Part shown: piece by piece, positions 2,380-45,976 of the stretch
Layout: every line of letters begins with the position of its first letter
How positions within the stretch are numbered: position 1 is the stretch's first letter
Position numbers and translations under genes: made by a program
Source: Candidatus Nanopelagicaceae bacterium
GTDB lineage: Bacteria; Actinomycetota; Actinomycetes; Nanopelagicales; Nanopelagicaceae
Reading direction: 5' to 3'
Assembly (NCBI GenBank): GCA_947454735.1
Contig: CANGLK010000008.1
Location: 1-45,976, forward strand
DNA: 45,976 nt
The notes under the pieces: generated by a model
Told to the model about the DNA's origin: nothing
Databases searched by the model: none
The model's input: the letters and a program-made list of their open reading frames with translations, nothing else

Positions 2380-2385
2380 AACCTA
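2380..2385 (-). promoter_or_regulatory. predicted -10 element for leaderless msrA mRNA
   Basis: TAGGTT on the minus strand lies 8 bases before the msrA ATG with no Shine-Dalgarno between. It fits the actinobacterial TANNNT -10 motif, with a spacing slightly longer than the usual 6-7. Confidence 0.4.
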
Positions 2386-2393
2386 CTCTCTGC

Positions 2394-2465
2394 GCCCCCG
2401 TAGCTCAGGGGATAGAGCACTGCCCTCCGGAGGCAGGTGCACAGGTTCGAATCCTGTCGGGGGCA
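2394..2465 (+). tRNA. tRNA-Arg (anticodon CCG)
   Basis: This is a complete cloverleaf of 72 bases. The acceptor stem is GCCCCCG/CGGGGGC, the D stem GCTC/GAGC, the anticodon stem CTGCC/GGCAG with loop CTCCGGA (anticodon CCG, reads CGG), and the T arm ACAGG-TTCGAAT-CCTGT. The discriminator is A. CCA is not encoded, because CTT follows. Confidence 0.97.
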
Positions 2466-2481
2466 CTTGATTGTTCGGCGC

Positions 2482-2513
2482 GAGGTAAATCACCTCATAT
2501 CTCAATCTTTTTT
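2482..2513 (+). terminator. possible weak terminator after tRNA-Arg
   Basis: A 5-bp stem GAGGT (2482-2486)/ACCTC (2492-2496) is followed, after 11 bases, by a run of six T (2508-2513). The stem is short and the T run is distant, so this is only a candidate end for the tRNA transcript. Confidence 0.25.
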
Positions 2514-2577
2514 CCCGTACATCCTTGTTTAACTCCCCCACAACAGGGAGAATTGCCAACTCACACTTCGTGAGAAT

Positions 2578-2600
2578 TACCGTTTGCCGCTGTAAAGGAG
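2578..2600 (+). promoter_or_regulatory. whiB1 -10 candidate and Shine-Dalgarno
   Basis: TACCGT at 2578-2583 is a TANNNT-type -10 candidate. AAAGGAG at 2594-2600 sits 7 bases before the whiB1 ATG, so a leader of roughly 18 bases with a real Shine-Dalgarno is predicted. A hairpin-forming CTCAC/GTGAG repeat (2560-2574) lies just upstream of the -10. Confidence 0.45.
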
Positions 2601-2607
2601 CTTCCCC

Positions 2608-2877
2608 ATGGATTGGAGACATCAATCTGCCTGCCGTGACGAAGATCCTGAGCTCTTCTTCCCTGTAGGTAATACAGGACCTGCAATCACTCAGATCGAA
2701 GAGGCGAAGAAGGTCTGCAATCGATGCATCGTCAAGGATGCTTGCCTGGCATGGGCTCTCGAATCTGGCCAGGATGCCGGAGTCTGGGGTGGTCTCTCAG
2801 AAGATGAGCGCCGCGCCCTCAAGCGCCGTGCTGCACGTAACCGTGCCCGTCTCATGGATAACGGTCTTACCAACTAA
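2608..2877 (+). CDS. whiB1: WhiB1-type iron-sulfur transcription factor
   Basis: WhiB1 is a small [4Fe-4S] regulator that binds the primary sigma factor and responds to nitric oxide in mycobacteria. The 89-residue protein has the four cluster cysteines (C9, C37, C40, C46), the GVWGG turn and a basic C-terminal tail (RRALKRRAARNRAR). The opening MDWRH.ACRDEDPELFFPVGN is close to the mycobacterial WhiB1 sequence I remember. It lies tail-to-tail with pdtaS, as whiB1 (Rv3219) and pdtaS (Rv3220c) do in Mycobacterium tuberculosis. A strong Shine-Dalgarno precedes it, unlike most transcription-unit heads here. Confidence 0.93.
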   Translation: MDWRHQSACRDEDPELFFPVGNTGPAITQIEEAKKVCNRCIVKDACLAWALESGQDAGVWGGLSEDERRALKRRAARNRARLMDNGLTN

Positions 2878-2887
2878 ATTCTCGGTT

Positions 2888-4360
2888 TTAATGAATCGGA
2901 AATTTTAGAACTGCTCGCGTCTCTTCCTGATTGGATTCAAGTACCAAAGTTCCGCGCAACTCATTCTCCGTCAATGTGCGAACAATTTGAAGTCCAAGGT
3001 TAGATGATGTTGCAAGGCTAAAGCCTTCAGGTAATCCCACTCCATCATCGGAAATCATGACTGTAACAGATTTATCTCTACGTTCGATTGTAATGTCGAG
3101 CTTACTTCCTTCACTTTCAAGCCCATGCTCAAGCGCATTGTAAATTAGTTCAGTAATGACCAAAGCTAGCGGTGTTGCAATGCGCGATTCGAGAGCACCG
3201 AGAGATCCCGCACGCGAGATCTTGAGTTCGCTCATACGTGGCGTTAGTTCAAGAGCATGATTAACCAATCGATCCAAGACATCGTCAAATGCAACAGATG
3301 AATCCGAGCTACTTGAAAGTGTTTCGTGCACAAGGGCAATCGATGCAATACGTCGAACAGCTTCGTTGAGAGCTTGGCTTGCCCCTGGATCATCAATACG
3401 ACGAGCTTGTAGTCGCAAGAGTGCAGATACCGTTTGAAGATTATTCTTTACGCGGTGGTGAATCTCGCGAATAGTTGCATCTTTGGTAACGAGTTCACGC
3501 TCACGACGTCGCAGCTCGGTCACATTGTTGAGCAAGACAATTGCCCCAATGCGATCTTGTCCCGCGATAATCGGCAATACGATCAGATCAATTACACCGC
3601 CGACATTCTCAACTTCTACGCGACGAAGTGAACGCCCACTCAAGCTAGTTATTAGCGCCTCTTCACGTGCATCTGACTTCTCGCGCGAAACTGTCTCTGC
3701 GATCTCACCTAACGAATAACCTTCAAGTTCGTTGGTCCAACCCATTCGGCTAAATGCTGATCGCGCATTAGGGCTGGCGTAACTCACAGTTCCGTTGACA
3801 TCTATGCGAACCAAACCATCACCGACGCGAGGAGTTGGATCAAAGAGGGTTCCCGCATTGCGATAGGGAAAGTTTCCCTCCGCAACCATTCTGTATAGCT
3901 CATGTGCAATCTCTCGATAATTGAGTTCGAGTCGAGATGGCTGGCGCATCAACTCTGAGTTGCGGTGGCGAGAGATAACTGCGATTACCTTCTCCCCCAT
4001 GATGACGGGAATGGTTTCTTCCTTAACCATCACATCGCCCAACATCTGTGGCTCTGTATTTCGAACAATCTCTCCATCGGATAAAGCTTGATCAATATAG
4101 AAGCGATCTCCCCACGCGATCTCATCTCCGATGACATCATTTGCAAAGACCGTTGCAGCAGTTGTAGGGCGAATATGTGCAACTGCTATGTAACCGGTTG
4201 GCCAACTCGCGTCATCTCTTCGAAGTGGAATCCAGAGAATGAGGTCGGCAAATGAAAGATCTGAAAGCAATTGCCAGTCAGCTACGAGCTCGCGAAGTTT
4301 GTGAATCTCCTCCGCCGAGGAAGGCGTTCTACCTTCAACATACTCTTCAATCGAAGCCAT
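2888..4360 (-). CDS. pdtaS: PdtaS-type sensor histidine kinase
   Basis: This is a soluble histidine kinase of the HisKA_2/HWE-like class (490 residues). PdtaS phosphorylates the antiterminator PdtaR, which is not in this window. Domain order is a GAF-like sensor with the marker WQLLSDLSFADL (about residues 25-150), PAS (about 180-285), the dimerisation/phosphoacceptor segment REIHHRVKNNLQTVSALLRL with tandem His at 301-302, and an HATPase domain with N-box ELIYNALEHG and G-box DDGVGLP. The His position nearly equals that of mycobacterial PdtaS. There is no membrane segment. I chose ATG 4360 over an upstream in-frame start because it sits 5 bases after the DUF6912 stop and avoids overlap, which implies co-translation. 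Confidence 0.93.
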   Translation of the reverse strand: MASIEEYVEGRTPSSAEEIHKLRELVADWQLLSDLSFADLILWIPLRRDDASWPTGYIAVAHIRPTTAATVFANDVIGDEIAWGDRFYIDQALSDGEIVRNTEPQMLGDVMVKEETIPVIMGEKVIAVISRHRNSELMRQPSRLELNYREIAHELYRMVAEGNFPYRNAGTLFDPTPRVGDGLVRIDVNGTVSYASPNARSAFSRMGWTNELEGYSLGEIAETVSREKSDAREEALITSLSGRSLRRVEVENVGGVIDLIVLPIIAGQDRIGAIVLLNNVTELRRRERELVTKDATIREIHHRVKNNLQTVSALLRLQARRIDDPGASQALNEAVRRIASIALVHETLSSSSDSSVAFDDVLDRLVNHALELTPRMSELKISRAGSLGALESRIATPLALVITELIYNALEHGLESEGSKLDITIERRDKSVTVMISDDGVGLPEGFSLATSSNLGLQIVRTLTENELRGTLVLESNQEETRAVLKFPIH

Positions 4361-4365
4361 GGTGG

Positions 4366-4758
4366 TTACCGATTCAACCAATCCCCAACGCTGAGCTGCG
4401 CCTCTTGTGGAGCAAACCATGTGAGGTCATCTGCATCTTCTCCCACGAGGAAAAGAGCTTCAACAGAGTTCCACTGAAGTGGCATAACGACTTCTGCACT
4501 GATCTCATCAAAGGCGCCAAGAATCTCTTCAGGAACCTCAAGGGCAATTACAAGTGCGGCGCCGGATTGGTCATCTAAGAACTCAATTGCATCTTCTGCG
4601 GCAAGGAGTGAGAGGGAGTATTCAATCTCTTCCTCATCCATCTCGGGATGGGTTCCGCTGTAAATAGGCGTTGGTGCATACACCTCTGAAATGTCGATTG
4701 TTCCGCTCTGGAGAAACTCTTGGAGTTCATCGGCAGTCGTACCAAAGTAAACGCGCAT
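4366..4758 (-). CDS. DUF6912 family protein
   Basis: This is a small acidic cytosolic protein of 130 residues starting MRVYFGTT, matching my memory of an uncharacterised actinobacterial family (DUF6912). No catalytic motif, signal peptide or membrane segment is visible. It lies between the CpaE-like ATPase (32-base gap) and pdtaS (5-base gap), so it is probably co-transcribed with both. Function is unknown. The position suggests a link to the kinase or the ATPase, but nothing in the sequence shows which. Confidence 0.75.
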   Translation of the reverse strand: MRVYFGTTADELQEFLQSGTIDISEVYAPTPIYSGTHPEMDEEEIEYSLSLLAAEDAIEFLDDQSGAALVIALEVPEEILGAFDEISAEVVMPLQWNSVEALFLVGEDADDLTWFAPQEAQLSVGDWLNR

Positions 4759-4790
4759 GTAGAAAGAATATCGTTATTACCCACCTGCGA

Positions 4791-5819
4791 TTACTCTTGA
4801 AAATGCCCTTCCTTTACAAATTGGGTAATCTCGCGATTAATTGCGCTCCGAGGAGCGCACCTCTGGAGGGTAGATCCTCGTTCCAATGCGGCTCTTGCCG
4901 CCTTATGATCGTGAGAGATTGTTACGACGTTGGTGGAGAAGGTCTCAGAAGTATTGGTTTCCAGCTCGATTCGATCTCGACGGCTCATTGCTAAATCTAA
5001 AGTGATTGCTATATCGATCTTGAGCGCCGAAGCAATATCCCTCAAGCTCGTCACCGCTCGCCCCGCTCTTTCAATACTCCTTTGAAAGTTTCTAGTAGTG
5101 AGAACGATTTGACCTTGAGAATGAAGTATCCATTGAAAAATTCGATCACCGATTCGAGCACCCATCATCGTTAGGTTGTTTGAAGGCCCGAGATCAATGA
5201 CGATGAAATCAAATTTCTCCGCAATTGCTGCCAAATGGAGAAGTTGGGTCACTTCCGAGATTTCAAGGAGAGATAGATTAGGAGTAAATTCTCTTGCCTG
5301 GCTTCGGATATCGTGGATTTCAAAGTGCTCTGCGATTGCCGGTGAGATTACATTCGCATCAACGAGCAAAACCTTCTTGCCTACAATAGAGATTTGATCT
5401 GCCGCGTTGAGTGCAAGTGTTGTTGTGCCGACTCCCCCCTGCGTAGAAGCAAATGCGATCACCTTTGATTGGGTCGCAGGAATTAGAATTTTCGCTGACG
5501 AGGCTTCTCTACTGTGGTTTCTTAATAGTTCGCCTAATTCAAAATCACTCTGTGGCGCTGTAACGCCTTCCTTTCCAAGGGGGTGGGTACGTCCACGCAG
5601 AAGAATCGTGCCTTCGAAATTGACCTTTTCAACGGATACAAAGTCATCCGAAAGGAGGAGCACGGCGCCGTTGAATCGCTCCAGATTTTCAGCGAGAAGA
5701 TCTGGAGACGTTGCGCGGTAAACCACTTTCCAGCCTGAGCGAATAAGTGATGCAGCGATCGCCCCCTCTTGCTCCATATCCTTGATTGCAGTTATTGCGA
5801 GCAATTCATCTTTAGCCAC
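4791..5819 (-). CDS. CpaE/TadZ-like ParA-superfamily ATPase with degenerate P-loop
   Basis: This protein has a receiver-like N-terminal region (about 1-110) and a SIMIBI/MinD-type domain (about 115-342). The family (CpaE, TadZ, Ssd) localises pilus or septum machinery at the inner membrane. The P-loop reads STQGGVGTTTLALN, so the ParA signature Lys is Q and the Walker A Lys is T. Later blocks remain: LLVDANVISPAI, and FIVIDLGPSNN in place of Walker B/switch II. I chose GTG 5819 (342 residues, 8-base overlap with the SAF gene); a TTG at 5828 is also in frame. No pilus genes (CpaF/TadA, pilin) occur in the window. ATP hydrolysis is doubtful. Confidence 0.78.
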   Translation of the reverse strand: MAKDELLAITAIKDMEQEGAIAASLIRSGWKVVYRATSPDLLAENLERFNGAVLLLSDDFVSVEKVNFEGTILLRGRTHPLGKEGVTAPQSDFELGELLRNHSREASSAKILIPATQSKVIAFASTQGGVGTTTLALNAADQISIVGKKVLLVDANVISPAIAEHFEIHDIRSQAREFTPNLSLLEISEVTQLLHLAAIAEKFDFIVIDLGPSNNLTMMGARIGDRIFQWILHSQGQIVLTTRNFQRSIERAGRAVTSLRDIASALKIDIAITLDLAMSRRDRIELETNTSETFSTNVVTISHDHKAARAALERGSTLQRCAPRSAINREITQFVKEGHFQE

Positions 5820-6414
5820 GACTTGCAACCACTACTAATCGACCGCTCGAGGTGGCGGCAAGAATCGCAGGAACATCATCTCTGTGAACCGTGATCGTCA
5901 GGGCGAGATCACCGCCAAAGTTTGCACCTTTCTGAGAAATTTCTTTTATGAAGACTCCACTCATTACTCGCAATGGCTCAGGAACAACCTCTCCATTGCG
6001 AGCATCAAATACTTGATAGAGCGAGACTATCTCTCCCACATAGCTCGTGGCTGGCAAGTCAGCAGCCCTGACTGCAATTGAAAGGCTCTCCGTATCCAGC
6101 TCTTCACCGCTCTTGCTGAGATCTGCGACGTTAAGGAGTGATCCAGCCGAAAGGTTCCTCACAGTGATGGAACCGATGGGATTAATCGATGAAGAGAGAT
6201 AACCCTGCGCTCCTCGTCCAAGGGTGACCTTTACAAGCGAGATATCAGATGAGGCAATCTGAACCCCTCGAGGTAATGGGTGCTTTAGAACCCAAAATTT
6301 ATCTCCTGTTGAAGAGATATATGCAATCAGCAGTGAGGCGATGATTGATGTGAGGAAGAGCGCGCCTGCAACGAGAAGGCGCGAGTGTGATTTCTTTTCG
6401 ACGTGTGAATTCAT
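5812..6414 (-). CDS. SAF-domain (CpaB/RcpC-like) membrane-anchored protein
   Basis: This 200-residue protein has a short basic N-terminus, one membrane segment (about residues 12-32, LVAGALFLTSIIASLLIAYI) and an outside SAF domain with FWVLKHPLPRGVQIASSDI and ITVRNLSAGSLLNVADL. CpaB-type SAF proteins normally help Flp/Tad pilus assembly, but stand-alone SAF plus CpaE-like pairs occur in actinobacteria. ATG 6414 is chosen because TACCGT lies exactly 6 bases upstream, the leaderless layout seen across the window. An in-frame TTG at 6447 with a GGAG upstream is the alternative. It heads the operon SAF, CpaE-like, DUF6912, pdtaS. Confidence 0.78.
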   Translation of the reverse strand: MNSHVEKKSHSRLLVAGALFLTSIIASLLIAYISSTGDKFWVLKHPLPRGVQIASSDISLVKVTLGRGAQGYLSSSINPIGSITVRNLSAGSLLNVADLSKSGEELDTESLSIAVRAADLPATSYVGEIVSLYQVFDARNGEVVPEPLRVMSGVFIKEISQKGANFGGDLALTITVHRDDVPAILAATSSGRLVVVASRG

Positions 6415-6420
6415 AGCGGC

Positions 6421-6426
6421 ACGGTA
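6421..6426 (-). promoter_or_regulatory. predicted -10 element for leaderless SAF-gene mRNA
   Basis: TACCGT lies 6 bases before ATG 6414, with no Shine-Dalgarno. It supports the ATG over the upstream TTG as the start. Confidence 0.5.
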
Positions 6427-6535
6427 ACGAGCGCGAAAGATGCACAATGCAGTTCTCCACAGTCATACCAATGGATGAGGAAAGTTCATTCATAGCTCGG
6501 ATGTCGACCCCAGTAATTTCAGCAAATCTTCCGCC

Positions 6536-7042: not shown

Positions 7043-7066
7043 AGTTAAGCGGCGCCGTGGCAGCGC
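7021..7066. terminator. possible bidirectional 3' structure between Rv3235-like gene and secA
   Basis: CACGGCGC (7021-7028) pairs with GCGCCGTG (7052-7059). Alternatively GCGCTGC (7025-7031) pairs with GCAGCGC (7060-7066). The two stems exclude each other and both span the convergent stop codons. There is no T run, so intrinsic termination is unproven. Confidence 0.35.
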
Positions 7067-9717: not shown

Positions 9718-9742
9718 GGAGGAACCTTTCGCAACGAGGGCT

Positions 9743-10390
9743 TTATCTTAGTGGCTGGGCCAGAGCGGCCGTTACGGCCCCAATCACCTGAATTCCCGCA
9801 TATCTCAAGGCGCGAGCCGCCTCAATGAGGGTCGCACCTGTCGTTACTAGGTCATCAACCAGAACTGCATTTCCATACAGTCCAACTTCCATTTCTACAA
9901 CAAAGGCACCCTCGAGATTATTCCGTCGCCCTTGGAGATCCAGGCCGCTCTGATCTCTCACCCGTCTGCCGTGAAGGAGCGGTGATTGAAGCGGAATTCT
10001 GAATTTCTCCGAAGCTGGACCTGCCATCTCTTTAATGAATTCGCGTCCTCGCAATCTTGTTGCGCTCTTGCGCGAAGGAATAGGAATCAAATAATCCACC
10101 CATTCTTCTCTCAGGAGATTTTCGAGTGAGTGCGTTATGGCGCTTGAAATTAATACATCTGCCCTTTCGAGATGATTCTCTTTAGCAGCAAGGATTACCT
10201 TTTGAGCAATAGGTGAATAAAGAACGCTTGAGGTCACTCGTAAAGATTCTTTACCTCTTCCAATATGAGTGATGTAGATATGAGGGTTCCATCCTCGTCT
10301 GCATTTCGAGCAGAGGGATAAACCAAGAGCGCTACAAGAGATGCAACGCGATGGAAAGAGAAGTTCGTTAAGAGATTGAATGAATTCCAC
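9743..10390 (-). CDS. comF: ComF family phosphoribosyltransferase-like protein
   Basis: This is a 215-residue ComF/GntX-type protein. A zinc-ribbon-like CxxC pair (C16, C19, C27, C30) is followed by a type I PRTase fold with the PRPP loop [20 protein letters not shown] near the C-terminus. ComF homologues assist DNA uptake in competent bacteria, but their reaction is not established. It begins with GTG at 10390; no other start exists in the short open stretch upstream. It follows mtrB by 31 bases. In mycobacteria lpqB lies between mtrB and comF; here there is no room for it. Confidence 0.88.
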
Positions 10391-15457: not shown

Positions 15458-15463
15458 ATAGTA
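15458..15463 (-). promoter_or_regulatory. predicted -10 element for leaderless manB mRNA
   Basis: TACTAT, close to the TATAAT consensus, lies exactly 6 bases before the manB ATG, with no Shine-Dalgarno. Confidence 0.5.
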
Positions 15464-15845: not shown

Positions 15846-15851
15846 AGATTA
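15846..15851 (-). promoter_or_regulatory. predicted -10 element for leaderless DUF3499 mRNA
   Basis: TAATCT lies 7 bases before the ATG at 15838. No Shine-Dalgarno is present. Confidence 0.5.
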
Positions 15852-15870: not shown

Positions 15871-17169
15871 TTAGGGAATCAACACTCTGATATTTGAACG
15901 AGGTATCGAAGTTCGGGTCAAAGTGCTTCCGATAACAAGTGGCGCATAACCAAATCCGCTCTTCGATGTGATGAGGGCGGCGCCATATGTCTGATCCGAG
16001 CGCTTGGTAATAGTGAATGAGCGAATTCGATCAGAGAGTTGATAGGTGGCAATATCCGAACCTCTTAAGGAGATGCTTCGCTTCTTGCCTTGGATGGAGG
16101 TGAGATCAATATTCACCTCGATCTTATCGCCGGAAAAGATAAGGAGTGGAGCTAAGCCAGTAACGGCAAAGGTTCCCTTCTCCAATTGAGGCGCAGGCGT
16201 GCTCCAAAGGAAGTCAGATTTACCGAGGGAATTTGTCTTGGTGAAGACAGATGCAACAAATGGGCGTTCAGAACTGATACGTAGTGCGAATTTTCCAGAT
16301 TCCATAATGACATCGAGGGGAAGATCGATAACTTTCCCGGCAGGAATCATCATCCCGTCAATACCGGATGGAGAGAAGGTTCCATCTGTGGATCTAATCT
16401 CAACATTTATCTGCGCGCCAACATCACCTGGAATAAGGATGCGAAGCGTGTGAGGCAGTGAGCTCTTCTTACCGGTCTGCTGGGGGATTGCAGGAATTAC
16501 TAAATTCTTAGCGGGGTTCTCTTGAGAATTTACAGTGTCACCACCGAGAGCCTGCAGGCCACGCCCTCTCTCATCTGTAAGAAATGCATTAACGCGACCG
16601 GTTTGTGGAAGCACGTGTATCGCTAGAGAGTGAGATCCTGGTGCAAGCGTTGCGAGTTGAATAGATGTAAAGGAGTTCGCTTTCACTGCAAAGAGCTGAT
16701 CAGCCTGAGCGCCATTCTCTGTAAATACTGTTACCGCAATAAGTGCTTTACCAAGGCCGCTATTAACTAAAGTTAAAGTTCCCTTTGAAGTCACATCGGC
16801 AGTAGCGCCGACAAACCATTGAGAGGTCACTGGCGCAAGACAGGTAGCGCCGCCAGCCCACTCACCTGTACGGGCTTGCCACATCAACGGAGTGACAGAT
16901 TGCGCATCGATCACCGTCGCCTGAGAGCTTCCGGCATATCCACGAGATCGAGCATCCTTAAATGCCATCGTTGAAGTACCGGTCTTGCGAATCTGCATAC
17001 TTGGTGAAGTAAGCGAGATGAGAGAACTCTGGCCAACTTGATTTGGTGGGCAAACAACAGCTGGATAACTCTCAGAATATCGATTGCTCTTCGTTGTAAT
17101 ACTGATGACATTGGTAAAGAGAGCGACTGCAACAAATGCAACAAGGAGTTGAAGTGCGCGAATCTTCAT
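15871..17169 (-). CDS. DUF5719 family secreted or anchored protein
   Basis: This is a 432-residue protein with an N-terminal signal or anchor (about residues 7-24, LQLLVAFVAVALFTNVI) and an otherwise extracytoplasmic, beta-rich, Ser/Thr-rich sequence. A conserved early AVVCPP segment agrees with DUF5719, a family commonly paired with a GT2 glycosyltransferase in actinobacteria. The start overlaps the stop of that glycosyltransferase by one base (TAATG), so the two are translated together and probably cooperate at the membrane. Function is unknown. I see no catalytic motif. Confidence 0.78.
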   Translation of the reverse strand: MKIRALQLLVAFVAVALFTNVISITTKSNRYSESYPAVVCPPNQVGQSSLISLTSPSMQIRKTGTSTMAFKDARSRGYAGSSQATVIDAQSVTPLMWQARTGEWAGGATCLAPVTSQWFVGATADVTSKGTLTLVNSGLGKALIAVTVFTENGAQADQLFAVKANSFTSIQLATLAPGSHSLAIHVLPQTGRVNAFLTDERGRGLQALGGDTVNSQENPAKNLVIPAIPQQTGKKSSLPHTLRILIPGDVGAQINVEIRSTDGTFSPSGIDGMMIPAGKVIDLPLDVIMESGKFALRISSERPFVASVFTKTNSLGKSDFLWSTPAPQLEKGTFAVTGLAPLLIFSGDKIEVNIDLTSIQGKKRSISLRGSDIATYQLSDRIRSFTITKRSDQTYGAALITSKSGFGYAPLVIGSTLTRTSIPRSNIRVLIP

Positions 17170-20210: not shown

Positions 20211-20216
20211 ACCTTA
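20211..20216 (-). promoter_or_regulatory. predicted -10 element for leaderless GT2-membrane gene mRNA
   Basis: TAAGGT lies 6 bases before ATG 20204, in the 44-base gap after the whiB2 stop. No Shine-Dalgarno is present. Confidence 0.5.
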
Positions 20217-23154: not shown

Positions 23155-23160
23155 TAACCT
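23155..23160 (+). promoter_or_regulatory. predicted -10 element for leaderless cysS mRNA
   Basis: TAACCT lies 6 bases before ATG 23167. It supports the long, extended form of CysS as the real product. Confidence 0.5.
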
Positions 23161-23166: not shown

Positions 23167-24744
23167 ATGAGTTTCGAAGGTGAGATATCGGCATCGCTCG
23201 GTAAACGCGTATCCATCCGCCTCCGTGATGGCGAGAGCTTTCGAGACTTACTTGGTGTTTTACAGAATGAGACGACAGTCATACGTCGCGATGGCTCAGC
23301 AGCAACTTTCGATTCAAGGGATATCGCATACTTCCGAGTAGTGCCGGTCTTCACGAGAGGAAATCACCAATTGGGTGTTCTCCAGCTCTATGAAACTGCA
23401 TCGCGCAAGCTTGAGAAGATCAGTGGCGAGCAGATTCGCATCTATGCCTGCGGTCCAACCGTCTATCGCGATTCCCATATCGGAAATATGCGCACCTTCT
23501 TACTTACCGACCTCATCCGACGTGCGCTCGCTCTCAATGGCATTGAAGCGATCACAGTTTCAAATATCACCGACGTCGGACATATGTCTGAGAATCTCGA
23601 TGGATCCGATAGCGGAGATAAGGTTCTTGAAGAAGCGGCGCGCGAAGCAATCACTCCCCTCATGATTGCGCGACGCTATGAAGATAAGTATCGCTCTGAT
23701 TTAGCTGCTCTCAATATTCTCTCCGCCGATTTCTATCCGCGTGCGAGCGAGAACATTGATCTGATTATCCAATCAATTGAGAAGTTAATAGAGAGCGGCT
23801 TCGCCTATATCGGAAGTGATGGAAATATTTACTTCGATGCAAAGAGCGTGAGCGATTACGGATATATCAGTGGAAATAAATTAGAATCTCTTAAACCGGG
23901 CCATCGATATGAATATGTTGGAGATGGCGGGAAGAGATTTCACGCCGACTGGGCGCTCTGGAAATTAGCGGGTAAGCGCAGTGAAATGATTTGGGATTCA
24001 CCATGGGGCGCAGGTTTTCCAGGGTGGCATATTGAGTGCAGTGCGATGTCACTCAACCTTGTAGGAGACCAAGTAGATATTCACGTTGGTGGAATAGACC
24101 TTCGATTCCCTCACCATGAAGATGAGAGAGCACAGACAAATGCCCTCGCTGGCAAAGAGGTTGTGAAGAATTGGATCCATGGCGAGCATCTCCTCTTTGA
24201 AGGAAAGAAGATGGCTAAGAGCTCTGGCAATGTCATTCTCATCTCGGACCTCGTTGAGCGTGGACTCGATCCACTTGCGCTCCGTCTTGCACTTCTTGAA
24301 AATCGCTATCGTGCTCAAATCGATATGACCTGGCAGGCGCTCAGCGCTGCAGATGCGACGCTATGGAGATGGCGCTCGGCGCTTACTTCATGGGGAGATA
24401 GCAGCGAAGTTAAATTCGATGAAGAAATCCATGCGCACTTTATGAATGACCTCGATACTTCTAAAGCTATCTTGCGCCTGCGGGCAATTGAGAAAGATGC
24501 CGCTATCGGTGAACAAGATAAGCGAGCGATATTTCTCTATGCAGATCAGCTCTTGGCTCTCGATCTCGATAGAAAAGTTGTTAATGAGATCAGCGTTGAA
24601 GCTCAACAGTTGCTTGCAGAACGCGCGGCAGCTCGCGCAGCAGGAAACTGGGCAGAGAGTGATCGCTTGCGTGATCTTCTCGCAACGCTAAAGATTGAAG
24701 TGAGAGATAGTAAAGATGGGCAGAGTTGGGAAGTAATTCGCTAA
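23167..24744 (+). CDS. cysS: cysteinyl-tRNA synthetase with N-terminal SH3-like domain
   Basis: CysRS charges tRNA-Cys. Residues from about 72 to 525 are a full-length synthetase: zinc ligands C95 (CGPTVY), C291 (ECSAMS), H316 and E320 (HHEDE), HIGH-type HIGN at 104-107, KMSKS-type KMAKS at 348-352, and a C-terminal DALR/anticodon region. MshC, the mycothiol paralogue, is shorter and is excluded. Residues 1 to about 62 are extra: LGKRVSIRLRDG, LLGVLQNETTVIRRDG and FRVVP resemble the N-terminal SH3-like domain of actinobacterial GNAT acetyltransferases. A leaderless -10 at 6 bases supports ATG 23167. The stop overlaps the convergent DUF6113 stop by four bases. Confidence 0.92.
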   Translation: MSFEGEISASLGKRVSIRLRDGESFRDLLGVLQNETTVIRRDGSAATFDSRDIAYFRVVPVFTRGNHQLGVLQLYETASRKLEKISGEQIRIYACGPTVYRDSHIGNMRTFLLTDLIRRALALNGIEAITVSNITDVGHMSENLDGSDSGDKVLEEAAREAITPLMIARRYEDKYRSDLAALNILSADFYPRASENIDLIIQSIEKLIESGFAYIGSDGNIYFDAKSVSDYGYISGNKLESLKPGHRYEYVGDGGKRFHADWALWKLAGKRSEMIWDSPWGAGFPGWHIECSAMSLNLVGDQVDIHVGGIDLRFPHHEDERAQTNALAGKEVVKNWIHGEHLLFEGKKMAKSSGNVILISDLVERGLDPLALRLALLENRYRAQIDMTWQALSAADATLWRWRSALTSWGDSSEVKFDEEIHAHFMNDLDTSKAILRLRAIEKDAAIGEQDKRAIFLYADQLLALDLDRKVVNEISVEAQQLLAERAAARAAGNWAESDRLRDLLATLKIEVRDSKDGQSWEVIR

Positions 24745-27169: not shown

Positions 27170-27175
27170 TACGAT
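27170..27175 (+). promoter_or_regulatory. predicted -10 element for leaderless tetR mRNA
   Basis: TACGAT lies 7 bases before ATG 27183, with no Shine-Dalgarno. It selects this Met over in-frame starts that run into moeZ. Confidence 0.5.
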
Positions 27176-27813: not shown

Positions 27814-27819
27814 TAAGAT
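27814..27819 (+). promoter_or_regulatory. predicted -10 element for leaderless DUF3107 mRNA
   Basis: TAAGAT lies 6 bases before ATG 27826, in the 16-base gap after the tetR stop. DUF3107 and the helicase may therefore be transcribed independently of the regulator. Confidence 0.45.
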
Positions 27820-31812: not shown

Positions 31813-31818
31813 GACTCA

Positions 31819-31835
31819 AACCTAGCCGATACCCT
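31819..31835. promoter_or_regulatory. back-to-back -10 elements for EamA and MgtE-like genes
   Basis: TAGGTT (31819-31824, minus strand) lies 6 bases before the EamA ATG. TACCCT (31830-31835, plus strand) lies 6 bases before the MgtE-like ATG. The two leaderless promoters share a 29-base intergenic gap. Confidence 0.5.
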
Positions 31836-31841
31836 TGCCTC

Positions 31842-35031: not shown

Positions 35032-35048
35032 AGAGGAACCTTATCGTT

Positions 35049-36803: not shown

Positions 36804-38197
36804 GAGAGCGACAATATCCAATCAACGAGCAAACGGACGCCATATCCGGTTCCACCCTTTGGATTTTCTCCAGAATCTGACTCTGAACGAGCTGTTCCCG
36901 CAATATCAAGGTGAACCCACTTACGGTCACCAACGAAATGCTCGAGGTAGAGTGCAGCGGTAACAGATCCCGCTGAGTAATCATGCTTATCTGCTGCATG
37001 ATTGAGATCTGCGACATCGCTATCGAGTGAATCTACATAATCATCGACGAGCGGCATATGCCAGACCCGCTCACCTGAAGCTTCGCCGACCGCGCTGAGC
37101 TGAGCTGCCAACTTATTGTCGCGGGTATACATCGCTGCAAATTGGCGACCGAGGCCGAGAGTGGCGGCGCCTGTAAGAGTTGCGATATCTACGAGGTAAT
37201 CAGGGTCGAGATTTTGATCTGCATAAGCCAAGCCATCTGCGAGAACTAATCGCCCTTCGGCATCGGTATTGATAATTTCAACTGTTGTTCCGCCATATTG
37301 AGTGATGATGTCAGATGGTCGTTGCGAAGTACCTGAGAGTGCATTCTCTGCACACATCATAAGAACGGTAACGCGGATATTTGGCTGAAGATCTGCAATG
37401 GCAGAAATTGCACCGAGAGCTGCAGCAGATCCTGCCATGTCGCTCTTCATTGGGGCCATCATGTCGTAAGGGCGCTTGAGTGAAACTCCACCAGTGTCGT
37501 AAGTAATTCCTTTTCCAACAATCACCACATGAGGAAGCGCATGAGCGCCCTTCACCTTTGACTTTGCAATCTTCTTAGGGATGTAAGAGATCTCTATAAA
37601 ACGAGGACCAGGATTTGGTGAAGACATTCCTACTGCGACAAGCCCACCGAATGGCGCGAGCGCCTTACCTTCAAGAACCTTGATAGCCAGACCTTTGCTA
37701 TCTGCAATCTTCTTTGCCTCTTGCGCCATCCACAGTGGAGTCTTGATGTTTGAAGGTGTGTGAATTAAGTCGCGAGTTGCAACGAGCGCTTGTGCCATTG
37801 CATCAGCTTCTGCGAGAGCGCCAATTTCATTGGTTGCGATTGAGAAAGTTGGAATCTCAGCAGGAGTTGATGTCTTGAGATTCCATATATAGGCGCCAAG
37901 AACCATTGAGATTGCATGGGCTTTTACTTCAGCCTTCTTAGTTGGAAGAAGTGAGATGAGATTAAGAGCTTTGCCACGGACTTTGCGCCCTAGCGCTGCA
38001 CCCGCTGCTCGAAAATCTTTCAGCGATTGATCGCCCAGCCCTACAAGGTAGAGGCGATCCATCTCAGTATCGGCGTGAAGAACTGGAATCTCAAAGAGCT
38101 CGCCAGCTTTAGCTGTTGGAGAGAAGAATGAAACTTCATCGAGAAGGTTGATTTCAAAAAGTTTCTCAATTGAAGAAATAAGTGAGGCCTTACCCAC
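36800..38197 (-). CDS. pepA: leucyl aminopeptidase (M17), start codon uncertain
   Basis: PepA removes N-terminal residues in the cytosol and usually forms a hexamer. Counted from GTG 38197 (465 residues), the metal and catalytic residues are K229 and D234 (VGKGITYDTGG), K241, D253 (MKSDMAG), D312 and E314 (NTDAEGRLVLADGL) and R316. The GTG start removes the first beta strand of the N-domain. About 32 codons upstream in frame encode LLGGDLLALGFIKSAEGEIS, which resembles the missing strand, but there is no ATG, GTG or TTG before the stop at 38351. An ATT at 38291-38293 is the best candidate for the true start. The 3' end overlaps the O-methyltransferase by four bases. Confidence 0.9.
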   Translation of the reverse strand: MGKASLISSIEKLFEINLLDEVSFFSPTAKAGELFEIPVLHADTEMDRLYLVGLGDQSLKDFRAAGAALGRKVRGKALNLISLLPTKKAEVKAHAISMVLGAYIWNLKTSTPAEIPTFSIATNEIGALAEADAMAQALVATRDLIHTPSNIKTPLWMAQEAKKIADSKGLAIKVLEGKALAPFGGLVAVGMSSPNPGPRFIEISYIPKKIAKSKVKGAHALPHVVIVGKGITYDTGGVSLKRPYDMMAPMKSDMAGSAAALGAISAIADLQPNIRVTVLMMCAENALSGTSQRPSDIITQYGGTTVEIINTDAEGRLVLADGLAYADQNLDPDYLVDIATLTGAATLGLGRQFAAMYTRDNKLAAQLSAVGEASGERVWHMPLVDDYVDSLDSDVADLNHAADKHDYSAGSVTAALYLEHFVGDRKWVHLDIAGTARSESDSGENPKGGTGYGVRLLVDWILSLS

Positions 38198-38729: not shown

Positions 38730-38740
38730 AGGGATAGAGG

Positions 38741-39725: not shown

Positions 39726-39729
39726 ATAC

Positions 39730-39760
39730 AGAAGGATAGGGCTTCAACGACTATCCTTCT
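39730..39760. promoter_or_regulatory. palindromic divergent promoter of LOG and dapD
   Basis: AGAAGGATAG (39730-39739) and CTATCCTTCT (39751-39760) form a perfect 10-bp inverted repeat with an 11-base spacer. Each arm contains TATCCT reading outward, and each hexamer is exactly 7 bases from its ATG (39725 on minus, 39765 on plus). Both genes should be leaderless. Confidence 0.65.
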
Positions 39761-39764
39761 TCCC

Positions 39765-40682: not shown

Positions 40683-41856
40683 CTGGCGTAAACCACGGTG
40701 AAGGTAACTTCACTCGACTTCTAAATGTATCTCCGCGCAAGATCTTTGAAACTCCATCTATTGACGTTCCCTTTATCCAGGTAACTGCACCTGCACTATT
40801 TCGGGAAAGAATCTCAATAGATGTGACATTGGGCAGAACGAAAGCTGCGGCGACCAATTGCTGAGACGTTGAAGCCTTCCATGAAGCAAAGCGCGGATTG
40901 AGTTTCATATCCACACTTGCAGTATCAGAGACAGATTGTGTGTAACTCGTGAATCCTCCCCATGCATCTGCAGTCGTCTGTGTTGCGCCACCGGAGGATG
41001 AGAAGAAGTAAGCCTGGATTGGTTTTCCGCCACTAAGAATTGCCAAGCCGGTCGATGAATCAACTACCGTGCGAAGAACTGCTGCGCGCCATAGCTGGCC
41101 AATCTTCGCCTCTGATTCTTTTGTGAAACCTACAAAGTTTTGATCTGCAATATGCGCATAGAGATGGCAGTCGCATGAAGCCTTAATTGAGTCCATCTTT
41201 GAAAGGGCATAACTTCGAGATGCAATGGTCTGTGCCTCTAGAACTGCAGAGGGCCAATTAGATGCTATCTCGCTAATTCCAAGCAAGTACTCATCATGAA
41301 GGGCCAATGAAGTTGTTACTTCAAGAGCTCCTTTAACGACTTTGATTTGAATAAGGCCGTATCTCAATCGCTCTGTTGTTCCGGATTCAGAGACGGTGAC
41401 CACAGGTACGGCTCCCCCGCTCCATCGGAGAGTGAGAAGGCTTGAATTAAAACCTTGAATTGTCTTGAGATCAGGCGAGATAGCAAGAGTGAGTTTCTTG
41501 TTATTAGCAATTGTTGCTAGTTGGATATCGCCTGAAAATAGTTGAAGTGAGGTCCCTGCAGAAGTTGTAGAGAAAGTTACCGTCTTGAGCGCATGACCAA
41601 CATTGACTCGGATTGTTGCGGTATCGATTACGGGAAGTACATCTACATTCTTGTAGTAGTACTTCAGAATTGCTGTTGCGCTTTCGCCAGCTGTTGCTCG
41701 CGCTTTCGCGCCAATCTGGCTCATTCCAACGCCATGGCCATATCCAGCGCCAGTAAAGTTAAAGGTTGCAGGGACTTCGACGCCTTCTGCGGGTGAAATC
41801 AAAGTCAGCGCAAGTGCTGCGCTGAGGAGCGGAAGAAACTTCTTAAACGTCCTCAT
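40675..41856 (-). CDS. SpoIID/LytB-domain secreted protein
   Basis: This is a 393-residue secreted protein with a signal peptide (about 4-24, [20 protein letters not shown]). The SpoIID motif block [17 protein letters not shown] and ILKYYYKN lies near the N-terminus (about 38-70), and the core [28 protein letters not shown] and [18 protein letters not shown] follows later. This is the permuted arrangement known from actinobacteria. SpoIID proteins cut or activate cutting of peptidoglycan glycan strands. ATG 41856 overlaps the ABC ATPase stop by 14 bases, so it belongs to the exporter operon. Confidence 0.85.
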
Positions 41857-42649
41857 CAGAGGATGCGCTCTTTCCGACATTCATAAACTTCTGATATTCA
41901 GCAATCACATCAGCGGGCTTACCGCGCGCCATTAATGTGCCCTTATTGAGCCAGATCACTTCATTACAGAGATCTTCAATTGTGGCAAGTGCGTGGCTGA
42001 CGAGAATCAGTGCGCGATCTGCAGTGCGAAGCTCTTTCATACGATTGAGTGACTTCTCTTTAAATTTTGCATCTCCAGTACTGAGCGCTTCATCAACAAT
42101 CAAAATATCTGGCTCGACAATTGCAGCTACAGAGAATGCAAGGCGTGCATACATGCCCGATGAGTATGTGCGCATAGGCGCATCAATCGCCTCTCCCAAT
42201 TCGGAGAAAGCTGCGATTGCCTCAAATTTCTCATCAATTTCAGCGCGAGACATACCTGCCGCAAGACCGCCGAGATAGACGTTTTCGCGTCCCGTCATTG
42301 ATGGATTGAATCCGACACCGAGTGCGAGAAGTGTTGAGACGCTTCCATACACTTCGATGCGCCCCTTTGTTGGTGGAACGATTCCTGAAATGACGCGCAT
42401 GAGTGATGATTTGCCGGCACCGTTGGAACCGATGATTCCAAGAACTGTTCCATAGTGGACATCGAGAGTGACTCCATTGAGCGCTTGAACGGTGCGAGTG
42501 TGCTTCTTACCGCGACCGAGCGACTTCAAACGTGCTTTGAGAGTTGGCTTCTTATCAATCGAAGTTGTGTAGGTCAGCCCAAGATCTTGAACCGATACGG
42601 CGATAGCGCCTCGAGAATGGTCGTGGTTAAAGTCGGACAGCGAAATCAC
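41843..42649 (-). CDS. Wzt-like polysaccharide ABC exporter ATPase
   Basis: This 268-residue ABC protein has Walker A GIIGSNGAGKSSLMRVI, ABC signature YSSGMYARLAFS, Walker B DILIVDEALSTGD and H-loop LVSHALATIEDL. The combination is typical of O-antigen/teichoic-acid exporters (Wzt, TagH, Rv3781). It ends soon after the nucleotide-binding domain, so there is no C-terminal glycan-binding domain. I chose GTG 42649 (23-base overlap with the permease); an in-frame TTG at 42682 is possible. It pairs with the upstream permease. Confidence 0.88.
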   Translation of the reverse strand: MISLSDFNHDHSRGAIAVSVQDLGLTYTTSIDKKPTLKARLKSLGRGKKHTRTVQALNGVTLDVHYGTVLGIIGSNGAGKSSLMRVISGIVPPTKGRIEVYGSVSTLLALGVGFNPSMTGRENVYLGGLAAGMSRAEIDEKFEAIAAFSELGEAIDAPMRTYSSGMYARLAFSVAAIVEPDILIVDEALSTGDAKFKEKSLNRMKELRTADRALILVSHALATIEDLCNEVIWLNKGTLMARGKPADVIAEYQKFMNVGKSASSDEDV

Positions 42650-43454
42650 GCTCCCTCGATAGGAAGAAGTATGTGCCGACAATAAAAATTGTCAGAGCAA
42701 AGAATGAAGCGTGAAGAAGAGCGCGGGGATGTGGCGCTTGCGCATGAACCATCACACGTGACCATGAATCCAGAAGATAGAAGATTGGATTCACAATCTC
42801 ATATCGCTTGATATGAGATGAAATCTTTGATGCTTCATAGAGAATCGGTGATAAGTAGAGAAGTGAGCGCGTTAAGTAAGGCAGCATGCTTGAAATATCG
42901 CGGAAGTAAACGTTGATACATGAAATCAAGATTGCCATTCCGAGCGCCATGACAACTGCGATAAAGAGAACTGGAATAGCCCAGAGCATCTGCAAAGAGA
43001 AAGGTAGGCCGAGAATTGCATGAATTGCTAACGCTACGACGAGTGTGGGCAAGAATCTAAAGATTGCGACCACCACTGCAGATATCGGCAACATGATGCG
43101 CGGGAATGAAGTGTTGAGAATTAAACGCTGGCCAGAGGTAATTGCCTTTACGCCCCCGGTCAAACTATTTGCAATCAAATAGAAGAGGAAGAGCGTCGCG
43201 GTGAGATGTCCAAAGCGAGTTGAATCGCTAGTTCCACCAATGACGTAGATCAAGAGGAAGTAAACGCCTGAAAGGAGAAGGGGGTTGAGCACCAACCAGA
43301 GCTGACCAAAGAGAGAACCGAAGTTCTGCTCGCGAAGCTCAGAGCGTGCGAATTCAGAGATAAAAGCTCGGCGATGCCAGAGCGAGCGCATATATGCGCG
43401 CATAGGAGGTAGGCCAGCCTTAAAAGGCACATATACAACTTGCGGCTGACTCAT
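42627..43454 (-). CDS. Wzm-like polysaccharide ABC exporter permease
   Basis: This is a 275-residue ABC-2 permease (Wzm, TagG, Rv3783 type) with six TM segments and the amphipathic entry FGSLFGQLWLVLNPLLLSGV. Other family features are SFPRIMLPISAVVVAIF and FRDISSMLPYLTRSLLYLSP. It exports a lipid-linked polysaccharide with the downstream ATPase. TAATCT 7 bases before ATG makes it the leaderless head of the permease-ATPase-SpoIID operon. Confidence 0.9.
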   Translation of the reverse strand: MSQPQVVYVPFKAGLPPMRAYMRSLWHRRAFISEFARSELREQNFGSLFGQLWLVLNPLLLSGVYFLLIYVIGGTSDSTRFGHLTATLFLFYLIANSLTGGVKAITSGQRLILNTSFPRIMLPISAVVVAIFRFLPTLVVALAIHAILGLPFSLQMLWAIPVLFIAVVMALGMAILISCINVYFRDISSMLPYLTRSLLYLSPILYEASKISSHIKRYEIVNPIFYLLDSWSRVMVHAQAPHPRALLHASFFALTIFIVGTYFFLSRERDFAVRL

Positions 43455-43461
43455 ACGGGGA

Positions 43462-43467
43462 AGATTA
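43462..43467 (-). promoter_or_regulatory. predicted -10 element for leaderless permease mRNA
   Basis: TAATCT lies 7 bases before ATG 43454. There is no Shine-Dalgarno. Confidence 0.5.
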
Positions 43468-43481
43468 CCTCAGTATCCCTA

Positions 43482-44486
43482 TTAATCAGATGAAGGGACG
43501 ATGCTCTTGGGCGAGGTAATAAAGCCTGCTCCCCATGCAAAGTGCATCGTTGGGATGACAGCTAATAAGTAGATGTACTGCGCGAGAGATTGAGCGATAA
43601 CAATAGAAGCCCCCGCAACGAAGAGAAGATAGATGACGGCAGGGATAAAGAAGATTGAATTGATGAATGCTCCGAGGAGAATTGAGACGAGGAAACCAGC
43701 GAGCGCGACAGGCGGGGCGAGATAGCGATAGTTAATGGTGCCCTTATGTCGACGAGATACAACTCGGCGCCAACGTCCATATTCAAAGTACTGCTTGGCA
43801 AGGGCCGTAACTGATGATCGTGGGCGATATGTGACTTCAAGTCGTGGGTCGAAGTAAATCGTTCCGCCTTTGGCACGCAATCTAAAGTTGAGCTCCCAAT
43901 CTTGTGCGCGAGTAAATCTCTCATCGAATCCACCGATTTCAAGAAGTGCATCTTTGACGAAGACACCGAGATAAACGGTATCGACCTCACCTGCCTCACC
44001 ACCTGTATGAAAACGAGATGCACCGACGCCAAGTGGACTGCGCATCGCACCAGCAACTGCTCGCTCAAATGGACTCTGACCCACAGCGGCCATAAGTCCG
44101 CCCACATTTACGGCACCTGTCGCTCTAAGTAATTCGACTGCTATAGAGATGTAGTTTTGAGGAATCTGCGCATGTCCATCAACTCGAACGATAACTGCGC
44201 CACTTGCTGCGCTAAGTGCGAGATTGAGTCCTGCCGCAGTTCGACCCGATGGATTGTCGACAACAATTACTCGAGTATCTTCACGATGAAGTTGATCTGC
44301 AATCTCGTGAGTGCGATCTTTTGAAGGTCCGACTGCGAGAACAATCTCGAATGAACCTTGGTAATCCTGAGAAAGGATTGAGAGCACTGCATCGCGGAGA
44401 TAGAGCTCTTCATTGAGAATTGGAAGGATCACAGAGACTGCGGGCAGCGGTGAGCCACTTAACTGGTGATTGTTCTGTGTCGCCAT
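43482..44486 (-). CDS. GT2 glycosyltransferase (ExoA-like) with membrane tail
   Basis: This is a 334-residue inverting GT-A enzyme. The N-terminal domain (about 15-245) shows VSVILPILNEELYLRDAVLS, IVVDNPSGRTAAGLN, VRVDGHA as DxD, and FTRAQDWELNFRLRAKGG with the ED-type acid. The last 80 residues contain two to three TM segments. Similar proteins (ExoA-like) extend exopolysaccharides at the inner face of the membrane. The sugar is unknown. It is divergent from the LCP gene with a 36-base gap. No strong -10 sits at the usual spacing; TAGCGT is 9 bases away. Confidence 0.88.
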   Translation of the reverse strand: MATQNNHQLSGSPLPAVSVILPILNEELYLRDAVLSILSQDYQGSFEIVLAVGPSKDRTHEIADQLHREDTRVIVVDNPSGRTAAGLNLALSAASGAVIVRVDGHAQIPQNYISIAVELLRATGAVNVGGLMAAVGQSPFERAVAGAMRSPLGVGASRFHTGGEAGEVDTVYLGVFVKDALLEIGGFDERFTRAQDWELNFRLRAKGGTIYFDPRLEVTYRPRSSVTALAKQYFEYGRWRRVVSRRHKGTINYRYLAPPVALAGFLVSILLGAFINSIFFIPAVIYLLFVAGASIVIAQSLAQYIYLLAVIPTMHFAWGAGFITSPKSIVPSSD

Positions 44487-44510
44487 AACCCCACAACGCT
44501 ATCGTTCAAG

Positions 44511-44516
44511 TACCCT
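44511..44516 (+). promoter_or_regulatory. predicted -10 element for leaderless LCP mRNA
   Basis: TACCCT lies 6 bases before GTG 44523. This decides the GTG start over the upstream in-frame ATG at 44466, which lies within the GT2 gene. Confidence 0.5.
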
Positions 44517-44522
44517 GCGCAT

Positions 44523-45638
44523 GTGAAATCAACTCGCGCAATTCGAATTATTACATCAATCTCATTGGGTGTTGTAGCCCTCTCTGCCATCACATGGCTT
44601 GGGCTTGGCCAGATTAGCGGCCAGATTTCGCGCATCGATGTCTTTGCTGGATTAAATAATCGCCCTGAGAAGGTGAACTCTGCTCTGAACTACCTCGTTG
44701 TGGGTTCTGATAACCGCGAAGGACTGACTAAAGAACAGTTGAAGAAGTTGCGCGTAGGTGGCGTCAAAGTTGCAGCAGGTGGTCGCTCTGACACCATGCT
44801 CTTGGTCCATATTTCAAAGAATCGCGACTCTGCATTTATCGTCTCACTCCCCCGCGACACTCTCGTAACTATTCCTGCACATACAAGCCAAGATGGAAAG
44901 TCACAGATTCCAGCGCGTGCAGGAAAGCTCAACGCTGCATTCGCTTTCGGTGGCGCGCCACTTCTTATCCAGACAATCGAAGGCATGACTCAGCTCAAGA
45001 TTGATCACTACGTTGAAGTGAGCTTCGCTGGATTCGTTGGTGTTGTAGATGCTCTGGGTGGAATTCAAGTCTGTTCTAACGTTGCCATCAATGATCCTAA
45101 GAGCCACTTAGTTATGGATGCAGGAACTCATACTCTTGATGGTGTTGAGTCTCTCAAGTATGTCCGCACACGTGATTTCGATGGTCGTGGAGATATTGGT
45201 CGAATGGAGCGTCAGCAGAAATTTGTATCTGCAGTAATTCGTAAAGCAACCTCTTCTGGAACGCTGCTCAACCCTATTAAGTTGGCAAATTTCTTTCAGG
45301 CAACGATCTCGACAGTGAAGATGGATGCCAGCGTCAATAAGAACGACCTTCTCACGCTTGCGAAGCAGATGCGAAATCTCTCATCTGGAAATGTGCGCAC
45401 CTTGACCGTTCCACTCTCCGATCCCAATGGCAGATATCCTGGACTTGGTTCGGTGGTGATTTGGGATTCAACGCTCGCCCCTGAACTTTGGAACCGTATA
45501 AAGAATGACACCGCACTGGTTGATACCGTGATTTCACCTAAGTCATCTGCATCACCAAAGGCCTCACAGACAGCGTCTACTGTAGATAAATTTAAGACAC
45601 ATACTGCGGCAGAGAATCCATGCGGAGCAAATAAATAA
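44523..45638 (+). CDS. LytR-CpsA-Psr (LCP) family wall glycopolymer ligase
   Basis: This 371-residue protein has one N-terminal TM (about 5-29) and an extracellular LCP domain. LCP enzymes attach lipid-linked polysaccharide to peptidoglycan or to other wall polymers. Visible motifs are YLVVGSDNRE, GGRSDTMLLVH, FIVSLPRDTLV, KLNAAFAFGGAP and the Arg/Asp-rich YVRTRDFDGRGDIGRMERQQ. It has no C-terminal LytR_C domain; the tail is Ser/Ala-rich. Start is GTG 44523. Adjacent exporter, GT2 and UDP-sugar dehydrogenase genes form a surface-glycan locus. Confidence 0.92.
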   Translation: MKSTRAIRIITSISLGVVALSAITWLGLGQISGQISRIDVFAGLNNRPEKVNSALNYLVVGSDNREGLTKEQLKKLRVGGVKVAAGGRSDTMLLVHISKNRDSAFIVSLPRDTLVTIPAHTSQDGKSQIPARAGKLNAAFAFGGAPLLIQTIEGMTQLKIDHYVEVSFAGFVGVVDALGGIQVCSNVAINDPKSHLVMDAGTHTLDGVESLKYVRTRDFDGRGDIGRMERQQKFVSAVIRKATSSGTLLNPIKLANFFQATISTVKMDASVNKNDLLTLAKQMRNLSSGNVRTLTVPLSDPNGRYPGLGSVVIWDSTLAPELWNRIKNDTALVDTVISPKSSASPKASQTASTVDKFKTHTAAENPCGANK

Positions 45639-45649
45639 CGACTCTGCAA

Positions 45650-45655
45650 TAGACT
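45650..45655 (+). promoter_or_regulatory. predicted -10 element for leaderless ugd mRNA
   Basis: TAGACT lies 7 bases before ATG 45663, favouring this start over the in-frame ATG at 45657. Confidence 0.4.
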
Positions 45656-45662
45656 CATGGGC

Positions 45663-45976
45663 ATGAAGTTAAAGCTCTCAGTCATCGGTTGCGGCTACCT
45701 AGGCGCAACACACGCTGCATGTATGTCATCTCTCGGATTCGATGTTGTTGGTATCGATACCGATCCACAGAAGGTGGAGCTCCTCCAAAAAGGTGAGCTT
45801 CCTTTCTACGAACCAGGTCTCGATACCTTGCTCGCAGAAGAGATGAAGACAGGTCGCCTCTCATTCACTACTGATTTCTCTGCGGTTGCAGATGCTGATG
45901 TTCACTTCATCTGCGTCGGAACACCACAGAGCAAAGATGGACTTGCCGCAGACCTGACATATGTAAAGGGTTCAGT
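45663..45976 (+). CDS. UDP-glucose/UDP-sugar 6-dehydrogenase, N-terminal part (cut by window end)
   Basis: About 104 residues are visible. The Rossmann motif VIGCGYLGATHAACMSSLGF, VVGIDTDPQKVELL, the conserved PFYEPGLD and FICVGTPQ identify the UDP-glucose/GDP-mannose dehydrogenase family; EPGLD favours UDP-glucose dehydrogenase (Ugd). It would make UDP-glucuronate for surface glycans. The catalytic Cys and C-terminal domain lie beyond the window. ATG 45657 is an alternative in-frame start. Confidence 0.85.
   Translation, partial: MKLKLSVIGCGYLGATHAACMSSLGFDVVGIDTDPQKVELLQKGELPFYEPGLDTLLAEEMKTGRLSFTTDFSAVADADVHFICVGTPQSKDGLAADLTYVKGS

Follow-up and report, generated by a model that had tools for sequence, protein, structure and literature searches.

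What do the TANNNT hexamers that stand just ahead of many start codons in a freshwater actinobacterial genome signify? The question arises from contig CANGLK010000008.1 of Candidatus Nanopelagicaceae bacterium (GenBank assembly GCA_947454735.1). Its 45,976 nucleotides, hereafter the window, make up one contig of a 75-contig, 1.4-Mb metagenome-assembled genome (MAG) with a GC content of about 49%. We infer that the MAG comes from the acI freshwater actinobacteria and is Planktophila-like; according to PMC5301498, no group is more abundant than acI in most freshwater lakes, and cultivating these bacteria is difficult. An original prediction, made from the letters of the window alone, had proposed that the hexamers mark leaderless genes and that leaderless transcription appears to be the default at transcription-unit heads. 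Our analysis makes it very likely that the boxes are sigma-A −10 boxes which put the transcription start on the start codon and so give rise to leaderless mRNAs; the genome-wide position of the boxes, their conservation where genes could be compared and the lack of Shine-Dalgarno (SD) sequences all strongly support this part of the prediction.

For the genome-wide count, the window was combined with 20 further stretches of the same MAG (446 kb, about one third of it). A simple codon-based gene caller found 459 genes; 16 of these were excluded because their 5′ end runs off a stretch, leaving 443 usable, and such ‘edge’ genes were likewise kept out of the head counts. Motif-blind starts, i.e. 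longest open reading frame (ORF) or best-coding starts, were picked without reference to TANNNT. With longest-ORF starts, the hexamer ends 6 or 7 bases before the start codon in 88 of the 443 genes, where about 9 are expected (66 genes at 6 and 22 at 7). The peak that had been set beforehand as the genome-wide test is therefore present in the third of the genome examined, and it rises above a background of 1.02% per position at offsets 15–39 (about 4.5 genes each), i.e. about 1 in 100 rather than the 1 in 64 originally assumed.

In the usual −10 geometry the box occupies −12 to −7 relative to +1. The offsets bear on a related reading, in which the boxes are promoters whose transcripts start several bases upstream of the start codon or at several sites, yielding leaders of 1–10 bases. 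Spacings of 6 and 7 do both occur, together with some of 8 and 9, and a side peak of 16 longest-ORF matches lies at 9 bases in the MAG. However, the side peak did not recur in 80 named acI loci (3 divergent, 5 same-strand gap and 16 operon-internal genes against backgrounds of 13.1, 6.4 and 17.2), and we treat it as chance rather than as a second class; moreover, the highest peak, at 6, agrees with a box spanning −12 to −7 and a start codon whose first base is +1. Short leaders of this kind have only a slim chance of being the rule.

The signal depends on gene arrangement. As heads we counted divergent genes and same-strand genes preceded by a gap of more than 20 bases, and starts were sorted into leaderless, SD and neither by a mixture model seeded with TANNNT and AGGAGG. 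The leaderless, SD and neither shares were 0.52, 0.25 and 0.23 at divergent heads (n = 110), 0.47, 0.31 and 0.22 at same-strand gaps of 21–60 (n = 55), 0.18, 0.53 and 0.29 at same-strand gaps above 60 (n = 62) and 0.15, 0.41 and 0.44 at same-strand gaps of 20 or less (n = 200). Summed over the three classes of putative heads (227 genes), this gives 42% leaderless and 34% SD. In the strict count, based on TANNNT itself, the excess at divergent heads is 0.50 (95% bootstrap 0.41–0.59), rising to 0.63 for the looser NANNNT; over all genes of the MAG it is 0.23. Close divergent heads are the most often leaderless (0.70 at gaps of 25–45 bp, n = 26, versus 0.28 at 150–300 bp, n = 22; model calls). 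In the three acI genomes, namely the MAG itself and the genomes G013 and G014, the median divergent-head gap is 60 for 107 leaderless genes and 134 for 52 SD genes (p 8e-8); with motif-blind starts the medians are 54 with and 107 without a strict box (p 0.001). The word ‘default’ thus describes about half of the divergent heads and is fair for close ones, but it overstates the case for putative heads as a whole and fails at same-strand gaps above 60.

As the original prediction had it, the leaderless genes lack SD sequences: in the three acI genomes SD-like words are no commoner in leaderless calls than in a decoy stretch (33/200 versus 28/200). A 16S rRNA gene, sought for a check of the anti-SD, was not found in the MAG at the search threshold. 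Around the box of the 200 leaderless calls, C is favoured directly before the start codon and T after the box, a pattern resembling the mycobacterial sigma-A promoter as described in PMC3898074; a −35 motif was sought in the same 200 genes and none was seen. By start codon, TANNNT in the three acI genomes is found at 184 ATG starts (21.9 expected), 29 GTG starts (9.8 expected) and 6 TTG starts (10.2 expected), and Mycobacterium smegmatis reporter work, as reported in PMC4633059, agrees with a signal borne by ATG and GTG. We rejected the lack of TTG enrichment as proof of leaderless translation: SD starts are also without TTG enrichment, so it does not separate the two mechanisms.

These data speak to a second alternative, in which leadered mRNAs carry TANNNT near the start codon as a signal for translation initiation or as an AT-rich site of unpairing, e.g. 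an S1 or standby site. For phyla such as Actinobacteria, a U-rich bias near −10 has indeed been suggested to reflect possible RPS1 sites (PMC5397173). Yet what we see at 6–7 is a spaced T-A-N-N-N-T and no U-rich tract, no SD accompanies it, and it is weak at operon-internal genes (0.15 versus 0.52) although those need translation signals too. We regard a translational role as highly improbable.

Conservation was assessed in loci of relatives, the best 80 by match to the window CysS (protein identity 52–66%). They include Candidatus Planktophila, Candidatus Nanopelagicaceae bacterium, an acI bin and the complete genomes IMCC25003 and IMCC19121; some labels among them, e.g. Bifidobacterium breve, look doubtful. 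Since the loci surround cysS, the comparable window genes run from ahcY to the O-methyltransferase gene, and 25 of them had at least 6 orthologues (those with fewer were dropped). An orthologue was allowed any plausible start codon, which raises chance matches to a few per cent. Among the ten leaderless window genes compared, seven keep TANNNT at 6–7 in 63–94% of orthologues (20/32 to 46/49). In genes not called leaderless the box is found in 0/37 orthologues of whiB2, 0/70 of the aminotransferase gene, 1/52 of the NTP transferase gene, 4/69 of fdxA and 0/13 of ahcY. When orthologues are aligned on their starts, T, A and T stay constant among drifting flanks, in rows that had been selected for TANNNT. 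Across 32 orthologue families the leaderless state is concordant (247.97 versus 104.5 ± 1.6 in 2,000 shuffles, which ignore relatedness). Some MgtE-like orthologues carry the box further upstream and GGGAGG before the start, and appear to have switched to an SD leader. A general turn of orthologues to SD as the gap grows was considered and dropped (15 mixed families, Wilcoxon p 0.50). For the genes comparable here, the leaderless state is largely conserved among relatives.

Several observations weigh against leaderless starts from a −10 box, or blunt the evidence for them. SD starts, too, show no excess of TTG (15 versus 21.7 expected), and in Escherichia coli TANNNT per start codon is not quite flat (ATG 11, 6.1 expected; GTG 1, 2.2 expected; TTG 7, 2.5 expected). 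The box is poorly kept in orthologues of the large GT2 gene (13/40), cysS (18/77) and the O-methyltransferase gene (2/14); the cysS orthologues are mixed because their N-terminus varies. Conversely, it is found in some families not called leaderless, namely those of the PIG-L gene (15/69), the PHP gene (10/55) and the protease gene (5/14). Neither signal is recognised at 24% of putative heads. Because TANNNT was among the seeds of the mixture model, the 0.52 from the model and the strict count are not independent, and the shuffles behind the concordance leave relatedness out of account. Finally, of 67 same-strand leaderless calls, 8 have the stop codon of the upstream gene as their TA; an artefact of motif-guided start choice or of upstream TAA/TAG stops, which this last figure would favour, has nonetheless next to no chance of explaining the excess, as motif-blind starts show the same peak, the excess is strongest at divergent heads, whose upstream neighbour is on the other strand, and the same script gives 0.01 [−0.09, 0.14] for E. 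coli divergent heads.

For the leaderless −10 reading, then, we infer that the box serves as promoter, sets the transcription start site and leads to initiation on a 5′ AUG or GUG. TANNNT would be the −10 box of the housekeeping (sigma-A type) RNA polymerase, transcription would start at the start codon's first base or within about a base of it, and the resulting mRNA, lacking a 5′ leader, would be translated from its 5′-terminal AUG or GUG, as has been shown by experiment in mycobacteria. About half of acI divergent heads and some 40% of putative heads would be leaderless, the remainder having an SD or no recognised signal. Because box and spacer take about 12 bp, divergent genes could share as little as 15–45 bp.

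In the window, where gene identities come from Pfam matches, the head rule gives 28 heads: 16 leaderless, 5 SD and 7 neither by model call. A strict box at 6 or 7 is present at 14 of the 28 with model-refined starts, and with motif-blind starts at 10 (longest-ORF) or 9 (best-coding), where an offset control on best-coding starts predicts 0.46, i.e. 0.021 per head; at that rate the binomial p is about 1.5e-10 for 10/28 and 4e-9 for 9/28. DUF3107 follows tetR after only 16 bases and does not qualify as a head. On re-reading the sequence, all 14 boxes originally named at 6 or 7 bases were present, as was that of msrA at 8 (Table 1). The list of SD leaders was right for the whiB gene at 2608, ahcY, whiB2 and fdxA, and lacked a fifth, weak SD call at 10099, whose start is doubtful; the permease gene has a GAGG directly upstream of its −10 box. 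The start codons that had been reassigned for the SAF-domain gene, tetR, LCP and ugd all fit the sequence, with orthologue support for tetR only (56/60, any plausible start codon accepted).

Table 1. TANNNT boxes ahead of start codons and closely spaced divergent pairs in the window
Gene or pair	Box	Box position (strand)	Bases before start	Start	Orthologues with TANNNT at 6–7	Remarks
msrA	TAGGTT	2380..2385 (-)	8	ATG 2371		Model 0.41, weakest of the set
DUF6912	TATTCT	4765..4770 (-)	6	ATG 4758		Not in the original list
SAF-domain gene	TACCGT	6421..6426 (-)	6	ATG 6414		ORF opens at TTG 6447
manB	TACTAT	15458..15463 (-)	6	ATG 15451	20/32	
DUF3499	TAATCT	15846..15851 (-)	7	ATG 15838	27/30	Model only 0.44
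Large GT2	TAAGGT	20211..20216 (-)	6	ATG 20204	13/40	
cysS	TAACCT	23155..23160 (+)	6	ATG 23167	18/77	Orthologues mixed
tetR	TACGAT	27170..27175 (+)	7	ATG 27183	56/60	
DUF3107	TAAGAT	27814..27819 (+)	6	ATG 27826	46/49	
EamA	TAGGTT	31819..31824 (-)	6	ATG 31812	42/52	
MgtE-like	TACCCT	31830..31835 (+)	6	ATG 31842	32/41	
TatB-like	TAAGGT	35038..35043 (-)	6	ATG 35031	22/26	Not in the original list
O-methyltransferase	TATTGT	36811..36816 (-)	7	ATG 36803	2/14	Inside upstream gene, doubtful; not in the original list
Small ORF	TANNNT		8	38729		Not in the original list
LOG-type	TATCCT	39733..39738 (-)	7	ATG 39725		
dapD	TATCCT	39752..39757 (+)	7	ATG 39765		
ABC-2 permease	TAATCT	43462..43467 (-)	7	ATG 43454		
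GT2 at 44486	TAGCGT	44496..44501 (-)	9	ATG 44486		Spacing off the main peak; not in the original list
LCP	TACCCT	44511..44516 (+)	6	GTG 44523		
ugd	TAGACT	45650..45655 (+)	7	ATG 45663		
EamA/MgtE-like pair				31812 / 31842		29 bp between (31813-31841)
LOG/dapD pair				39725 / 39765		39 bp between (39726-39764)
GT2/LCP pair				44486 / 44523		36 bp between (44487-44522); spacing 9 on the GT2 side

The three tight divergent pairs that the model calls in the window have counterparts elsewhere in acI. A strict box on both sides, with starts 15–45 bp apart, was found in 8 of 55 divergent pairs of the MAG (one of them, with just 16 bp, is doubtful), in 2 of 24 in G013 and in 3 of 21 in G014, making 13/100; in the 80 named acI loci there were 15 in 195, where recurrent gap lengths point to a shared locus in the relatives. 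By comparison, ten other Actinomycetota genomes gave 1/227 and E. coli 0/21. The count of tight pairs is not independent evidence, because it is shaped by the higher leaderless frequency, by shorter spacers and by gene calling that is poorer at high GC. By their geometry, the −35 region in such pairs would fall inside the opposite gene.

Three genes call for comment of their own. The box of tetR has the consensus TAcgAT (50 rows, spacing 7), more fixed than the boxes of other families, and it may overlap an operator; the window TetR resembles FasR (NCBIfam NF053731, 244 bits, under the cut-off of 330). Upstream of DUF3499 (20 rows, spacing 7) there is a second conserved stretch 33–41 bases before the start, about AATCCC-AA (window 15871-15879), which shares bases with the stop codon of DUF5719, the gene upstream, and may represent no more than the tail of that gene. 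In the window CysS, the first ~68 residues (23167-23370) precede the match to the cysS family, which begins at residue 72. Among 62 matches to this N-terminal stretch in the 80 loci, fused ORFs of more than 430 aa account for 22, short ORFs for another 22 and ORFs of 200–430 aa for 18; the one examined (L048, 9968-10942) encodes a GNAT protein of 324 aa that matches Rv0428c_C and immediately precedes cysS. It looks as if the acetyltransferase part was lost and its N-terminal domain fused to CysS.

How high is the leaderless share in acI? With one script, the strict divergent-head excess is 0.50 in the MAG, 0.46 in G013, 0.54 in G014 and 0.40 in the 80 named loci pooled. In other families of the class it is 0.30 (G028), 0.23 (G027), 0.15 (G026), 0.07 (G036), 0.02 (G034) and 0.01 (G035), and in other classes of the phylum 0.31 (G055), 0.10 (G066), 0.08 (G050) and 0.05 (G045). 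The acI range of 0.40–0.54 thus lies above the 0.01–0.31 of the ten other actinobacterial genomes, with the intervals of G028 [0.16–0.44] and G055 [0.16–0.47] overlapping that of the MAG. The values of high-GC genomes are probably undercounted: our caller recovers few genes in them, e.g. 112 in 186 kb of G034, for which reason we read them as lower bounds and not as true rates. We put forward only tentatively, and with more doubt than confidence, that acI has among the highest leaderless shares at heads of all bacterial lineages (60% or more of divergent heads when imperfect boxes are included), together with two-way promoters of 15–45 bp whose −35 regions lie in the opposite gene, as part of genome compactness.

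If about half of acI divergent heads are leaderless, sequence alone would suffice to correct the annotation of gene starts, expression constructs meant for acI should not rely solely on SD leaders, and acI would lend itself to a natural test of whether genome compactness favours leaderless promoters. Our counts provide a prediction for 5′-end sequencing.

Actinobacterial leaderless genes at large are well known; for acI, Planktophila or Nanopelagicales we found no report on them in the open-access literature, a search that left most subscription journals outside. As here, TA-led genes in Zheng 2011 (PMC3160421) and in a 2025 study of −10 motifs (PMC12340547) are described as carrying TANNNT some 12 bp ahead of the start. 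Zheng 2011 gives ~20% of genes as TA-led in Actinobacteria and ~40% in Deinococcus-Thermus, and the all-gene excess in the MAG is about equal to the former figure. In Corynebacterium glutamicum, which shares the TAnnnT box, 33% of mRNAs (707/2,147) are leaderless, all starting with AUG or GUG (PMC3890552); that value comes from RNA-seq, whereas acI was counted by sequence with heads defined otherwise. Closely juxtaposed divergent promoters are called common in M. tuberculosis (PMC3898074), similarly to the tight pairs of acI, for which our measure is start codons 15–45 bp apart. RNA-seq in that species shows that 26% of genes with a primary transcription start site are leaderless (PMC3898074), compared with about 50% of divergent and 42% of putative heads in the MAG by sequence. 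The proposal that acI exceeds mycobacteria is plausible, but the comparison sets a sequence count against RNA-seq and is uncalibrated. As far as the cited accounts go (PMC3898074, PMC4633059), Mycobacterium and acI have in common the TANNNT box, no conserved −35, C before the transcription start and conservation across species, and probably also ATG or GTG as the start codon.

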